A stretch of DNA of 64,000 nucleotides. Source: Verrucomicrobiota bacterium. Its GTDB lineage: Bacteria; Verrucomicrobiota; Verrucomicrobiia; Verrucomicrobiales; Akkermansiaceae. Below are positions 35,567-45,343 of the stretch, one piece after another; the stretch's first letter is position 1, and each line of letters starts with the position of its first letter. The notes under the pieces are model-generated. The model saw only the letters and a list, made by a program, of their open reading frames with translations. It searched no databases and was not told the DNA's origin. The position numbers were made by a program, and so were the translations under genes. The stretch is from the NCBI GenBank assembly GCA_030835305.1, contig JAURPJ010000095.1, positions 1 through 64,000 on the forward strand. The letters are read 5' to 3'.

Positions 35567-38500
35567 ATGAAATTTAGGAATCTCCTACCGCTTTCGCTTA
35601 CCCTTATCTCAGCGTCAGCTCAAAGTTCCCGGCTCACCATTGAGGGAAGCAACCTGCCTCCCGAGATCCTGATGAGGCTTGAACAACAAGCAGGCCGTCC
35701 AACCACCTCCGCGGTCGCCAATTCATCCTCCCCGTCAAAGCCACCGCAGACCCCCGAGCAGCAACGGACAAAACTGCTTCAGGGCCTCAAAATCGATCGC
35801 ACCACTTCCGGGATTCTCGCCACCCGCCTGGCCGAGAAAAATCAGGCAGGAAAGCCTCCAATAGCAGTTCCCACTGTTCCAAAAGATCCTGAGGTAGGCC
35901 CCCCAGAGAATCCACAGGTAACAAAGCAGCGGAAAGAGCAGGCGAAACTTGCGGCCTTCAAGAACGACTTCGACAAGTTTACCCGCGACGTCACCCTGGG
36001 ACGATGGGGCGGTGTCAAAACCTACCTAGCCGCTCTTCCAGCCGGTGACGCCACTCTGGCCTTTCGTCAAATTGTCACCCAGCTGAATGCGCCGGTCACC
36101 GTCCGCCCGCGCAAGGAACTGACCACCCTCGGCGCCAAGCAACACCAACAAGAGCAGTATCTCCGACCCGAAGAGTTTCTAGCCCTTACCGATGCTTCGC
36201 AAAAAGCTCCCGACAAGACCATCCTACCTCAACTCGCGGGCTTGATCAAAGGCGACCGCAAGCCACCAAGTGACTTCTTCGCCGTCCTCGCCAAAGGAAC
36301 CCGCTACTTCGGGCTCGACGATGAAGAAACCAAGGCTCGCACTGCACATCTCTTGATCGAAGCCGGCCACCTCAACGAGACCGAACCGTTTCTCCCGGCC
36401 CTCAAGGAAGCCGAAGAGACCAAAAACTATCCCGCCCTCAACCTCCTCGGTCGCTACCATGCAGAATCCCACTCCGCTGATCGTGGTGACGGGCATCTTG
36501 AAAATGCCTGGAAAATTTCTCTCAGAATCATTAGCGAAAAAATGGCACCGCTCAGCGAGCGGGCCGAAGCTCTCTACCGGGCTCTCGCTCTCGTTCCCGA
36601 CCTCGAAGACGGCACCGGGAGCGACTGGCTCGTGAAGACCTTTGCCAACGCATCCACCGAGGGTTTTGAAATCCTCGCAACCGTCGGAACTCTGGCTTCC
36701 CAGGTTCGCGAACACCGCTCGGCAGATTTCCGCCTCGAGCAACTCAAGCTCCAGGCCGCAGCGGTCGCCGCCCTCACATCGAACGTGAAAATCGACCTCA
36801 AACCCTGGCAGGAAATCCTTACTCTTTACGTTCGTAACTGGAACGCAGAGGCCGAACGATCCTATCGCCTTGACACCTCCAACTCGATGCGCCCGCAAGC
36901 GCAGGTCGATCCGTTTGGCAACCTTTTCTACTCACGCTACCAGCCCCCCGTCCGTCAAACCAACACTCGCACCATTCCGGCGATTCCCTCCGGGGATCTG
37001 CTCCGCACCCGCCCAGATAAGCAGTGGCTCGCGCAAATTGATTCCCCGGTGCGCCTTGAGAACATCGAGCTCTCCGCAAAGCTATTTCTCAAGGTCAAGG
37101 AGGAGGAGGAAGCCTTCCTGATTCTCAAAAAGCTCGCAAAAGTAAAGCCGAAAGAAACCAAGGAACTGGTTCGCGAAATGATCCGGGTTTGGGCCGAAAA
37201 CAATAATCCAAACCAACAGAGTCGCTACCGCTCCAGCTACTCTTATTACTACGGTTACAATCAGCGCGCCGAGACCATCCCGCTCACACGCTCCAAGCAG
37301 GAACGCAATCTCAAGCTTCTCGCCAATATGGTGAACGAGGTGAAGGCCCTCGGACTCGATGAGAACTTTCAGGAGGAGTTCGCCGACGCCTTCATCCAGG
37401 CCCACTCGCAAGCCGAAGTCTGGCGGGTCGAGGCACTCACTGCGGTCTTTGGAGAAACTTCCAAGCTCGACTCCGGCACCATTGCCTCTCTCCTCCGCCG
37501 CATGCGGCAAAACCTCGCCCTTCTCTGGCCGAACCCCAAGCTGCAAGAGCAGGCCAAAACCAACCGCAAGGACAAGGAACTGGAAGCCCAAATATTCAAA
37601 GGTTATTCCGCGGCCAAAAACCTTTGTCTCGACGCACTGGACCAGAACCCCGATGACTGGGCTCTTAAAGTCCAACTTGCTTCGATCAAATACGAGGAGT
37701 CAAACTACAGGGCCGGAATCGCCTCGCACCCCGAGCACTCGACCACCAAGTCCTTTGCCCTCGAAGATCTCGCAGAGGCCGCTTCGGCTTATATCTCCTC
37801 CCTACCGTTAGAAGACGAAAAGGAAGAGTCAACAGAAGCTTTCACCACCTGGTTTTATGCCGCACTTGGCTCGCCGGATCTCGCCGCCCTCAAGGCCGAA
37901 CACCAACCATTTCCAGCGGAGTATCCAAAGATTAAGGCCGCGCTCGCAAGCATCCCGGAAGCTGCGAGATCGCGTCACCTCGACGATTTTGCAAAGACCC
38001 TCAATTCACGCCTCGCCAACGTCAAAGCGGATCTAAAATACCGATTCCTTGAGGCCGTCCTTCAGATCACCGGCAAGCACGAACGAATCGAGGAAGCGGC
38101 CCGCGTTTTCGAATACTATCAAGACCTCGTCACTGAGATCGAACTCGATGTTCACCTCGACGGTCTCGACCAAATCGATGCCAGCAAGCCTTTCGGTCTC
38201 TTCGTTAATCTCCGCCACACCAAGGAGATCGAGCGCGAGTCTGGCGGCTTCCAACGCTACCTGATCAACCAGACCAATTCACCATACTCTTATAATTATG
38301 GGCGCCCCACCGAGGACTACCGCGACAAGTTCGAAAAAGGCGCACGCAGTGTTCTCGAGGAACATTTTGAAATCGTCTCTCTGACCTTTCACAACTCAAA
38401 AGTCGCAAGCCGGACCGACGCGCAGGACGGTTGGACCGTCACTCCCTATGCATACTTCCTTCTCAAGCCGAAGGGTCCGGAAATCGATGCCATTCCTCCA

Positions 38501-39337
38501 CTCAAAATCGATCTGGATTTCCTTGACACCTCCGGCTACGTCGTCCTCCCGATTGCCTCCGCCGCCATCCCGGTCGATGCCAGTGGCGAGGCTTCGACAC
38601 GCCCATACCGCGATCTTTCCCTCGCCATGATCCTTGACCAACGCGAGACGGGAGAAGAAGGAAACATCACTCTTGAAATCAGGGCTTCTGGGCACGGACT
38701 GGTTCCCCCGCTTGAAAAATTGATCGAACTTCCCATCGACGGTTTCGAAATCTCCTCCACCGACGACCGGGAATTGCAAGTCGATGAACTCGATGCCAGC
38801 ACTGATGATGGAGCCCCGATCTCGACTCACGAATGGCGCCTGATTCTGGAGCCAGAATCAGGCAAGCTTCCCGAGAAATTCACCTTCCCAAAAGTTCTTG
38901 CCAAGCTTTCGACCGCAGAGGGGGAAGGACTAAACCTGCAGAAATATGAAGATGTCGATCTCATCACAGTCGAGCAAACAACCGCAATTCAGGGTGGCTC
39001 CTCCAAGCCCCCTCCCTACCTCCTCTTTATCGCCCTGCTGATACCGGCAATCGGCGTCGCCATCTCCATCTACTTCCTACTCTTTACAAATAAGGAAAAG
39101 CCTGTCGTTCAAAACGGCCCGGAACTCCCCGGAACACTCACGCCGGTCAGCCTCTTGTCCTTTCTTGAAGGTCTGCAACGAGACACCCAACTTCCCAAAG
39201 AAGCTCGCAGCAAGATCCAGAAATCTATTCAATCCCTGAAGGATCGTTCTTTCGGCCCTGGCACCGATGTTCCGGATATCGAGGAACTCAGGAAAATTGC
39301 TGCGGATTCCATCGAACCACTCCAGGAAGTCGGATAA
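35567..39337 (+). CDS. Large hypothetical envelope protein (1256 aa) with C-terminal TM
   Basis: Signal peptide, long alpha-solenoid-like region, C-terminal PPYLLFIALLIPAIGVAISIYFLLF TM and cytoplasmic tail. Confidence 0.65.
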   Translation: MKFRNLLPLSLTLISASAQSSRLTIEGSNLPPEILMRLEQQAGRPTTSAVANSSSPSKPPQTPEQQRTKLLQGLKIDRTTSGILATRLAEKNQAGKPPIAVPTVPKDPEVGPPENPQVTKQRKEQAKLAAFKNDFDKFTRDVTLGRWGGVKTYLAALPAGDATLAFRQIVTQLNAPVTVRPRKELTTLGAKQHQQEQYLRPEEFLALTDASQKAPDKTILPQLAGLIKGDRKPPSDFFAVLAKGTRYFGLDDEETKARTAHLLIEAGHLNETEPFLPALKEAEETKNYPALNLLGRYHAESHSADRGDGHLENAWKISLRIISEKMAPLSERAEALYRALALVPDLEDGTGSDWLVKTFANASTEGFEILATVGTLASQVREHRSADFRLEQLKLQAAAVAALTSNVKIDLKPWQEILTLYVRNWNAEAERSYRLDTSNSMRPQAQVDPFGNLFYSRYQPPVRQTNTRTIPAIPSGDLLRTRPDKQWLAQIDSPVRLENIELSAKLFLKVKEEEEAFLILKKLAKVKPKETKELVREMIRVWAENNNPNQQSRYRSSYSYYYGYNQRAETIPLTRSKQERNLKLLANMVNEVKALGLDENFQEEFADAFIQAHSQAEVWRVEALTAVFGETSKLDSGTIASLLRRMRQNLALLWPNPKLQEQAKTNRKDKELEAQIFKGYSAAKNLCLDALDQNPDDWALKVQLASIKYEESNYRAGIASHPEHSTTKSFALEDLAEAASAYISSLPLEDEKEESTEAFTTWFYAALGSPDLAALKAEHQPFPAEYPKIKAALASIPEAARSRHLDDFAKTLNSRLANVKADLKYRFLEAVLQITGKHERIEEAARVFEYYQDLVTEIELDVHLDGLDQIDASKPFGLFVNLRHTKEIERESGGFQRYLINQTNSPYSYNYGRPTEDYRDKFEKGARSVLEEHFEIVSLTFHNSKVASRTDAQDGWTVTPYAYFLLKPKGPEIDAIPPLKIDLDFLDTSGYVVLPIASAAIPVDASGEASTRPYRDLSLAMILDQRETGEEGNITLEIRASGHGLVPPLEKLIELPIDGFEISSTDDRELQVDELDASTDDGAPISTHEWRLILEPESGKLPEKFTFPKVLAKLSTAEGEGLNLQKYEDVDLITVEQTTAIQGGSSKPPPYLLFIALLIPAIGVAISIYFLLFTNKEKPVVQNGPELPGTLTPVSLLSFLEGLQRDTQLPKEARSKIQKSIQSLKDRSFGPGTDVPDIEELRKIAADSIEPLQEVG

Positions 39338-41872: not shown

Positions 41873-42613
41873 ATGCTTCTGTCCTACGACACTCTCGGGC
41901 CAAACTCAGCTGAACCTCTTGTCTTCCTGCACGGCCTCGGCGCTGGAAAAATCAAGACGACTGCCATACTTCCAGACCTGGAAAACCTCCACCTCATTGC
42001 TCCCGACATGCCGGGCCACGGGGATTCCATGGCCTTCGATCCTGAAACCTTCTCTTTCGATTTCTTCGCTGATCAGGTCATCACGCTCATGGATCATCTG
42101 GGAATAGAAGGTTGCTACCTTGGCGGACTTTCGATGGGTTCCGGAATCACCCTCAATATCGCACTCCGATATCCCGACCGCTTAAAAAAACTCATCCTAC
42201 TCCGCCCTTCGTGGCTCGACTCCAGATGCCCCGCCCATCTCAAGCTCGTTGCCGACGCAGGCGAGATGGTACAGAACGATTTAGAATCGCTCCCTGAATT
42301 CCAAACCCTCCTTGCGACCAACGAACTGGTCGCCAAATCCATCACCGCCGTTTACCAGCGACCTGATAACTCGGTCCTCAGCCGCATGTGGAATTCCCGC
42401 CCTTTTTCATCCATCGAAGACTTGAAAACCGTCACGGCCCCCGCTCTTGTCATGTCCTGCCCGCGAGACGACCTGCACCCCGAATCTGTTGCTTCCGCCA
42501 TTGCCAAGACCCTTCCAAACTCTCAACTTGTCAGCCTTCCCGCCCGCTATCACGAGCCCGAAGCTTATCAAAAATCTCTCAACCAACACATCAACCAATT
42601 CCTTAACTCATGA
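41873..42613 (+). CDS. Alpha/beta hydrolase
   Basis: VFLHGLGAGK, LIAPDMPGHGDS, YLGGLSMGSGITLNIALRYPDRLKKLILLRP. Confidence 0.88.
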   Translation: MLLSYDTLGPNSAEPLVFLHGLGAGKIKTTAILPDLENLHLIAPDMPGHGDSMAFDPETFSFDFFADQVITLMDHLGIEGCYLGGLSMGSGITLNIALRYPDRLKKLILLRPSWLDSRCPAHLKLVADAGEMVQNDLESLPEFQTLLATNELVAKSITAVYQRPDNSVLSRMWNSRPFSSIEDLKTVTAPALVMSCPRDDLHPESVASAIAKTLPNSQLVSLPARYHEPEAYQKSLNQHINQFLNS

Positions 42614-43470
42614 TCACAAAACGTCTCACCACCGAACAGATCCTCGCCAACCTGAAGGCCAAGGTCGACGCCCGCATTCCCATCATGATCTCCTCGGCGG
42701 GATCAGGCCTCGTAGCCAAGCTTCAGGAAGCCGCCGGCACCGATTGCATCAACACATTCTCCGGCGCCCGGCTTCGAGCCAACGGCATGGGAACCATGTC
42801 TATGATGTGGCCCATTCTCGATTCCAACAAGCAGACCCTAGACTACACCCGCGAGGACATCATGCCGGCTCTCGAAGGAAAGGCCTTCGTCTGCGCCTGC
42901 CTGAACGCCAATGATCCCCTCAAGGACATGCGCATGGTACTCCAGCAATGCAAGGATATGGGCGTTCAGTCAGTCTCCAACATCGGGCCATCGGTTTCCT
43001 ATGTCGATCACGACTCCGAGATCTTCAAAGTGATTACCTCCGCCGGAATCACCATCCAAAACGAAATCGACATGCTCATCCTTGCCAAGGAGGAAATGGA
43101 AATGGTCTCCGTCGGGCTCGCCTTCACCGAGGAAGATTCCTACGCGATCTGTGAGCAGGCCAAGCCTCACATTTTCTGCTATCATGCCGGTACTACCAAG
43201 GGCGGCATCAAAGGATACGACAACGGCATGACCATTGAGGAAACCGCCGAGCAGACCGAGAAGGTTTATCAAAAGTGCCGGGAGCTCAGCCCCGACACGA
43301 TTCTCGTCGCGCACGGCGCCGCCATGGAAACCCCGGACGATGCTCAATATATGCTCAACCACACCAGCGGCCACGGTTTCTGGACCGGCTCATCCACCGA
43401 GCGACTCCCCATCGAACGCGCGGTCTCCGCCGCCGCCAACGAGTTCCGGGGGCTAACTTTCGATAAGTAA
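42610..43470 (+). CDS. Phosphoenolpyruvate hydrolase-like TIM-barrel protein
   Basis: PIMISSAGSGLVAKLQEAAGTDCINTFSGARLRANGMGTMSMMWPILDSN and C-terminal HGAAMETPDDAQYMLNHTSGHGFWTGSSTERLPIE. Confidence 0.85.
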   Translation: MITKRLTTEQILANLKAKVDARIPIMISSAGSGLVAKLQEAAGTDCINTFSGARLRANGMGTMSMMWPILDSNKQTLDYTREDIMPALEGKAFVCACLNANDPLKDMRMVLQQCKDMGVQSVSNIGPSVSYVDHDSEIFKVITSAGITIQNEIDMLILAKEEMEMVSVGLAFTEEDSYAICEQAKPHIFCYHAGTTKGGIKGYDNGMTIEETAEQTEKVYQKCRELSPDTILVAHGAAMETPDDAQYMLNHTSGHGFWTGSSTERLPIERAVSAAANEFRGLTFDK

Positions 43471-43514
43471 AAGATTCGAGTTTCAAGTCTGGATCATCCC
43501 TCAAAAAGCGAAGT

Positions 43515-43539
43515 CCGGGGCAACATCCCCGGGTTTTTT
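43515..43539 (+). terminator. Rho-independent terminator
   Basis: CCGGGG-CAACAT-CCCCGG-GTTTTTT. Confidence 0.9.
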
Positions 43540-43590
43540 GCGCTAAAAATCTCCTCCACGACAAATTCTCCATGCGCTAGGGTCGATCCT

Positions 43591-44841
43591 GTGAATCTTC
43601 CAATCCTTGCCGCCACGCCCTTGCTGGCTTTGCTTCCGGCCCCTCTTTCCGCCGACAACACACACACACCGGCCCCGGCATTTGAATCTTCCCATCCCTG
43701 GATCACAAATCTCGACCTGGCCCTTGAGCAATCCCGCAAAACCAGCAAACCCATCCTCGCAGAATTCCGGTGAGAGACCTGAGCGGATTGCCGCGAATTT
43801 GAGGCACGGTTCGTGTCCACCCCACAAAACGGTCCACTCGGGAAACTACAGGAGAAGTATATCCGCCTCCGCATCACCAACATGGCTGAAGTTGATATCG
43901 GAGTCTTCGAAATGGATTTCAATACCACTTTCGGACTCTTTGTCCTTAACCACCGCAAGCAAGTCTACCTCCGCTATGGAGCCCGCAATGACGGCGGGGC
44001 CGAAACCTTCCTGTCCATCCCCAGTGTCGCCATCGCCTTGCAGCGGGGGCTCATTCTTCATGAGCGATGGAAGGCCGGAAGCTTCACCCCGCTACCGGCC
44101 GGAAAATCCAGGATGTCTCAAACCTTTCCGAACGTCCTGAAAACCGTGCGGGAAAACAAGTGCGTGCACTGCCATCAGGTGGCCGAGGGACAAGCCGTGG
44201 AAATCTTTGCCCTCGCTGATTTTGACAAAAAAACGTCGCCCTGGATCTTTCCAGACCCGGCAAAACTCGGCCTAAAACTGAAAGTGGATGATCCCATCGT
44301 CGTCGAGCACTCGACCGGTGCCGCCGCCAAGTCCGGAATCAAAAACGGAGAGGAAATCTTAAAAGTCGATGGCAAGACCGTCAGCACCTTCGCCGACATT
44401 CAATACGTCCTCCACCACCTTCCCCGTGATCGCAAGGAACTAACCCTGACCACCAATCAAGGCCCGCGAAAAATCGCCCTCTCCTCCCACTGGCGCGTCA
44501 CCGACCTCAATCGGCGCTCCATTGGCCACAAGATGGAACCATTCCCCGGTTTCTGGGGAAAGCCACTCACGATCGGTGAGAAGAAAAAATTGGGTCTTCC
44601 TACCGAAAGCTTTGCCACCCGCGCAACCAAATTCTGGGTTATCACCCCGGGCAAGCAAGCCGGCATGAGAGAGGGCGACGTCGTCATCGCTGTCGATGGA
44701 GTCAGCTCCAGCCCCCTTGCCGTAAACGCCCAGGTCTATATTCGCCTCAACTACGAGACAGGAGACGAGATCACCGTCAAATTCCTCCGAGAGGGAAAGA
44801 CCGGGGAAGCAACGTATACGCTCAAAGCAAAACCGTGGTAG
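43591..44841 (+). CDS. Candidate selenoprotein: secreted thioredoxin-like UxxU + CxxCH + PDZ protein with two in-frame UGA codons (43771-43773 and 43780-43782)
   Basis: Single frame from GTG 43591 to TAG 44841; only internal stops are two TGAs in ILAEFR(TGA)ET(TGA)ADCREFEARF. Signal peptide at N-terminus, CVHCH haem-like motif, PDZ-like C-terminal segments (GIKNGEEILKVDGKTVSTFADIQYVL; GMREGDVVIAVDGVSSSPL). Confidence 0.72.
43800..43819 (+). promoter_or_regulatory. Candidate bacterial SECIS stem-loop
   Basis: T-G-(A bulge)-GGCACG / GTT loop / CGTGTC-C-A: 8 bp with one bulged A and a G-first apical loop; loop begins 26 nt after the second UGA and 35 nt after the first. Confidence 0.55.
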
Positions 44842-44866
44842 ACTTGTCCCACTCCCCCTCAAAACC

Positions 44867-45343
44867 ATGACCCGCTCCCTACCTTTTAAAATTCTCCTTT
44901 GCGCAATCACCACGCTACTACTGGGGGGGCTCGGGGGCTGGTTGACCGGCGGTTCCAACCCCAATTGGTATGCCACCCTAAAACACCCCCCTGGAAAGCC
45001 CTCAAACTGGCTTTTCGGCCCGGTCTGGACCGTCCTCTACCTCATGATTGGCACCAGTGCTGCCCTAATCTGGCATCACCATCCCAAACAGGTTGGCAGG
45101 ACCCGCTCCACTTTCTGCTTCAGTCTGCAGTTGATCCTCAACCTTTGCTGGACTCCGGCTTTCTTCGGAGCCCATCAAATCGAGCTCGCCCTCGTGATCA
45201 TCATCCTAATGTGGCTCGCCATTTTTATGACCATTCGGGAATTTGGACATTTCTCCAAACCGGCGGCCTTCCTCCTTGTTCCCTATCTTCTGTGGGTCTC
45301 CTATGCGACCTATTTGAATGCCAGCTACGCTTGCTTAAACTAA
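44867..45343 (+). CDS. TspO/MBR family protein
   Basis: WYATLKHPPGKPSNWLFGPVWTVLYLMIGTSAALIW signature and 5-TM topology. Confidence 0.92.
   Translation: MTRSLPFKILLCAITTLLLGGLGGWLTGGSNPNWYATLKHPPGKPSNWLFGPVWTVLYLMIGTSAALIWHHHPKQVGRTRSTFCFSLQLILNLCWTPAFFGAHQIELALVIIILMWLAIFMTIREFGHFSKPAAFLLVPYLLWVSYATYLNASYACLN

Follow-up and report, generated by a model that had tools for sequence, protein, structure and literature searches.

Within the window, i.e. the whole 64,000-nucleotide stretch analyzed here (contig JAURPJ010000095.1, from a source assembly of 4.45 Mb that is 97% complete), positions 43591-44841 on the forward strand hold a single frame of 417 codons, which starts with GTG and yields 416 residues on translation. 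The frame contains exactly two internal stops, both TGA and spaced as CxxC, at 43771-43773 (UGA1, codon 61) and 43780-43782 (UGA2, codon 64). Retranslation returned the same coordinates and spacing as the original prediction, with the surrounding peptide reading KPILAEFR-U-ET-U-ADCREFEARF (U, putative selenocysteine, Sec). According to the frame translation and the family alignment, Sec61 and Sec64 would occupy the first and second redox positions, respectively. Standard annotation would split this gene into two. As had been claimed, TGA acts as a normal stop in the window: it terminates an ORF at 42613 and is thus not simply a sense codon.

Protein architecture and family membership

Pfam identified a Thioredoxin_7 domain (43699-43881) and two PDZ domains, the first covering residues ~225-294 (44263-44472) and the second residues ~352-412 (44644-44826), the latter also delineated by the NCBIfam model match and the AlphaFold2 model. 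In the AlphaFold2 model (pLDDT 83, pTM 0.82), residues U61-E-T-U64 are located between strand 55-59 and the N-terminus of helix 65-75, which is the position of a thioredoxin active site. A hydrophobic stretch ending in LSA and devoid of a basic n-region was recognized by eye as a probable N-terminal export signal (43591-43656). The CxxCH motif C191-V-H-C194-H195 (44161-44175) is a candidate haem c or metal site; its two cysteines and its histidine are invariant in the family, as is H157, which at a guess could be the second haem ligand. Pfam matched no cytochrome domain in the protein. The best Foldseek matches listed were PDZ-containing proteases with low TM-scores, which adds little. The most likely role is predicted to be that of a secreted diselenide/dithiol oxidoreductase.

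Comparison of the gene neighborhood across UxxU loci gave no functional clue: neighbors are common to the same-genus copy and partly to locus L116, and are not found at the other UxxU loci compared. A TspO/MBR family gene lies directly downstream (44867-45343); it also stands beside the same-genus copy (L115), has an ORF match in L116 and is unmatched in the other loci compared. A 1256-aa ORF at 35567-39337 gave no Pfam match at 1e-5.

The protein matches the NCBIfam model NF041199, Trx7/PDZ domain-containing (seleno)protein, over residues 36-409 with 353.1 bits (cut-off 300). The same cut-off was passed by 9 out of 10 relatives tested, including all three UxxU relatives (333-376 bits). The suggestion that the architecture might be undescribed therefore falls: NF041199 already models it, and the listing in a 2026 review gives the family as CxxU with one Sec, with a 2008 GOS survey as source (PMC13188914; PMC2398784). 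NF041199 probably corresponds to the GOS family named 'secreted serine protease MucD' (PMC2398784). The window gene shares with NF041199 the whole-length model match, the Trx7 and PDZ architecture and Sec in the CxxC-equivalent motif, but it carries UxxU and two Sec codons where the family as listed has CxxU and one Sec. It is a variant within NF041199, since the published motif describes the listed members and the model cut-off is passed. Judged against the review listing of CxxU, the two-Sec UxxU form appears to be new, and it is possible that UxxU members of the family are already annotated somewhere.

Other bacterial families with two Sec per protein are the metal-binding NF041115 (UxxU), FmdB (UxxU) and ferredoxin-thioredoxin reductase (CxU, 2 Sec), whose domains are unrelated to those found here (PMC13188914). 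A UxxU motif is also recorded for Prx-like 2 in the GOS survey (PMC2398784). SelL and Prx-like UxxU selenoproteins resemble the window protein in having two Sec in the UxxU of a thioredoxin-like fold, but they belong to a separate, Prx-like family; Pfam detected no peroxiredoxin-type domain in the window protein, which, judged by domains alone, places it outside SelL. In SelL, a diselenide bond is known. Neither SelL nor the Prx-like UxxU selenoproteins are known to possess PDZ domains or a CxxCH motif.

Selenocysteine machinery and Cys/Sec alternation

The same genome encodes selA (488.8 bits), selB (317.7 bits), selD (385.6 bits, with its own in-frame TGA in CGGUASK) and selC, a single tRNA-Sec with anticodon UCA (ARAGORN SeC; Rfam 52.9 bits, cut-off 47). 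SelA, SelB, SelC and SelD, which a genome must encode to make a bacterial selenoprotein and which the original prediction had called for, are hence all present. Across the order, selA was found in 18 of the 19 genomes with Sec forms versus 98 of 290 genomes overall (hypergeometric p 1.5e-8, kinship ignored), and in 9 of 55 genomes whose family members are CxxC only. The lone selA-less genome with a Sec form (G230) is 53% complete and contains a UGA-containing selD. Two kinds of UGA-containing selD were observed, one with the Sec context CGUAAK (L199, L200, L201) and one with GGUASK or AGUASK (L193, L195, L196). Their hairpins are spaced at about 17 nt in L200 and L201 and at 33 nt in L193, L195 and L196; in the selD of L199, unlike in L200 and L201, no hairpin was found.

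In 125 of the 290 genomes, the order-wide search picked up relatives; many matched weakly or only in part. In the 88 members that could be mapped at both redox positions, the pairs were UxxU (6), CxxU (17) and CxxC (65), and nothing else. The in-frame UGAs are aligned with Cys in homologues, which is the comparative mark of a bacterial selenoprotein, and the Cys counterparts anticipated at both TGAs do exist. A contig scan of named genomes mapped 79 loci (64 CxxU, 11 UxxU and 4 CxxC), which overlap partly with the 88-member set. Over all searches, 14 non-redundant UxxU sequences were collected from Verrucomicrobiota and Planctomycetota (the latter being L118, L129, L159, L186 and L190); CxxU forms are common in Acidobacteriota and were found in several other phyla. 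Family members come almost entirely from metagenome assemblies, and no relatives were found in the plasmids and viral contigs searched. One CxxU carrier that belongs to a named strain is Roseibacillus persicicus (L133). The distribution is patchy: an orthologue is present in 2 out of 11 sampled same-genus genomes (own included), and the same-genus genome G281 carries a UxxU copy from a different clade.

The same two TGAs recur in separate assemblies (L024/L115, L116 and L117). The protein of the same-genus relative L024 is ~95% identical, with 42 of 1248 nucleotides differing from the window gene, and it keeps both TGAs with no other stop; the earlier argument that two such stops exceed chance holds on this basis and on the restriction of the 88 members to C or U. 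Purifying selection extends across the stops, as dN/dS between the two genes is 0.24 upstream of the TGAs and 0.23 downstream of them; translation past both TGAs would be the simplest reading of these substitution patterns. Elsewhere in the aligned cores, TGA occurs only in the degenerate copy L112 and in the terminal read-past of L038. L112, in the same-genus genome G257, is a CxxC-type copy with an in-frame TGA off the redox sites and CYCH aligned where CCCH stands; it looks like a decaying paralogue.

In a maximum-likelihood tree of 68 sequences, the UxxU label requires five changes, with a minimum of four dictated by the starred branches, and all three motif states together require eight. 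UxxU is kept in Planctomycetota clades as well as among the six sequences of one Verrucomicrobiota clade. On this tree, the UxxU form would have been gained or lost about five times. The CxxU sequence L119 clusters with the Planctomycetota UxxU sequences, so that losses are likely to have occurred as well as gains.

A covarying hairpin downstream of the UGA codons

A candidate bacterial SECIS upper stem-loop is located at 43803-43817, with a 6 bp stem (GGCACG/CGTGTC) and the loop GTT, which begins downstream of both codons, at 26 nt from UGA2 and 35 nt from UGA1. Published bSECIS elements are spaced at 16-37 nt (PMC13188914), and the criteria applied here (loop of 3-9 nt, G in the first two loop bases, spacing of 16-37 nt, MFE <= -7.5) agree with the window hairpin at both distances. 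The window's own hairpin has only 6 bp including a GU pair, and its best fold (an extended hairpin) reaches -8.5 kcal/mol. An Rfam scan of 43400-45000 found nothing. Loose bSECIS-like matches were obtained by the energy scan also in 44 of 65 CxxC genes, and the SECIS argument therefore rests on position and covariation.

In most Sec forms, a short hairpin whose loop reads GGU or GUU follows UGA2 at 26 nt; in a few, the fold at about this place has a somewhat longer loop. Across 47 non-redundant Sec forms, 87% of the cells of the six-pair stem are paired; the covariation score is 0.447 versus 0.168 for shuffled and at most 0.142 for slid versions, and both sides are changed in 36 cells versus 9.0 in shuffles. 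The 5-nt loops of L032 and L033 lower the fixed-register count. In 21 CxxC forms, the stem is 38% paired and shows no covariation excess, and RNAalifold predicted no consensus structure for the CxxC forms. Sequences that are related may score above their shuffles even when unstructured, and it is therefore the slid and CxxC controls that carry the weight of the covariation argument. Four CxxC members (L029, L030, L031 and L053) keep an FDAQVV/FDAKVV-like peptide with eroded hairpin pairing; they may once have been Sec genes and have since returned to Cys.

When the 14 UxxU forms were analyzed by themselves, the hairpin found in the larger Sec set again covaried and was the sole helix predicted; a separate SECIS for UGA1 was sought in these sequences and no other helix emerged. 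The hairpin stays at the CxxU position, leaving 35 nt between UGA1 and the loop. L021 and L025 have short hairpins immediately behind UGA2 that the other UxxU sequences lack. As no second hairpin was found, it is probable that UGA1 (at 35 nt) and UGA2 (at 26 nt) depend on a single SECIS, a matter on which the original prediction was silent. GUU-loop hairpins at 33 nt in the selD of G137, G068 and G281 indicate that these SelBs probably tolerate a long spacing; the selD of the window genome has ACGCAAGTTTTGCGT at the equivalent place, though a different fold ranked first in the energy scan. E. coli is considered to be strict about the spacing of its SECIS elements, and decoding at 35 nt is accordingly putative.

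Proposed decoding of two UGAs and its implications

A UxxU Sec centre beside CxxCH and PDZ domains, as put forward originally, is strongly supported by the Sec machinery, the Cys/Sec alternation and the covarying SECIS, while the accompanying claim of an undescribed architecture did not stand. Of the refuting observations listed with the prediction, none of those accessible to computation turned up. We consider it highly probable that the gene product is an exported selenoprotein of the Trx7/PDZ family NF041199 in which both CxxC cysteines are replaced by Sec and one SECIS acts on both UGAs. SelB and Sec-tRNA would read the two UGAs, guided by the single downstream hairpin, and the product would most likely be a periplasmic oxidoreductase that alternates between a diselenide and a two-selenol state. 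The PDZ pair may position partners or substrates, and CxxCH perhaps carries haem c.

The strongest competing explanation, improbable in our view, is that only UGA2 is efficiently recoded, UGA1 mostly terminating or being suppressed by another tRNA, and that UxxU proteins are poorly made or caught in mid-decay from CxxU. It would account for a hairpin that has not moved from its CxxU spacing of 26 nt in UxxU forms and for the lack of a predicted UGA1-specific hairpin, but it sits poorly with the conservation of UxxU in clades of two phyla, its recurrence about five times on the tree and the purifying selection downstream; moreover, 35 nt does not exceed the bSECIS range, and a spacing of 33 nt occurs at selD in several of these genomes. 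A gene broken by decay or by sequencing error, as two in-frame stops in a metagenome assembly might suggest, is very improbable, given identical TGAs in separate assemblies with no other lesions, stops at redox positions only and a dN/dS of about 0.23. The chance that UGA specifies a different amino acid (e.g. Cys or Trp) through a code change or a suppressor is smaller still: the UGA positions do align with Cys, but the genome has complete Sec machinery and a UGA-containing selD, TGA works as an ordinary stop nearby, and members with a UGA have the SECIS-like hairpin behind it, but the hairpin is unconserved in CxxC members. On the comparative data, we rejected a pseudogene, a sequencing error and an altered code.

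Preferring Sec at both sites, we think it rather probable that one hairpin serves two UGAs 9 nt apart and thereby gives rise to a diselenide thioredoxin domain in one chain with the PDZ domains and what may be a haem c site, and that Verrucomicrobiota and Planctomycetota have repeatedly acquired this form of NF041199. This poses a testable decoding question, namely over what distance a bacterial SECIS can act on a UGA and whether one hairpin suffices for two successive UGAs. The family also offers a natural C/C, C/U and U/U active-site series on one scaffold, which is suited to testing why a cell pays for the second selenium.
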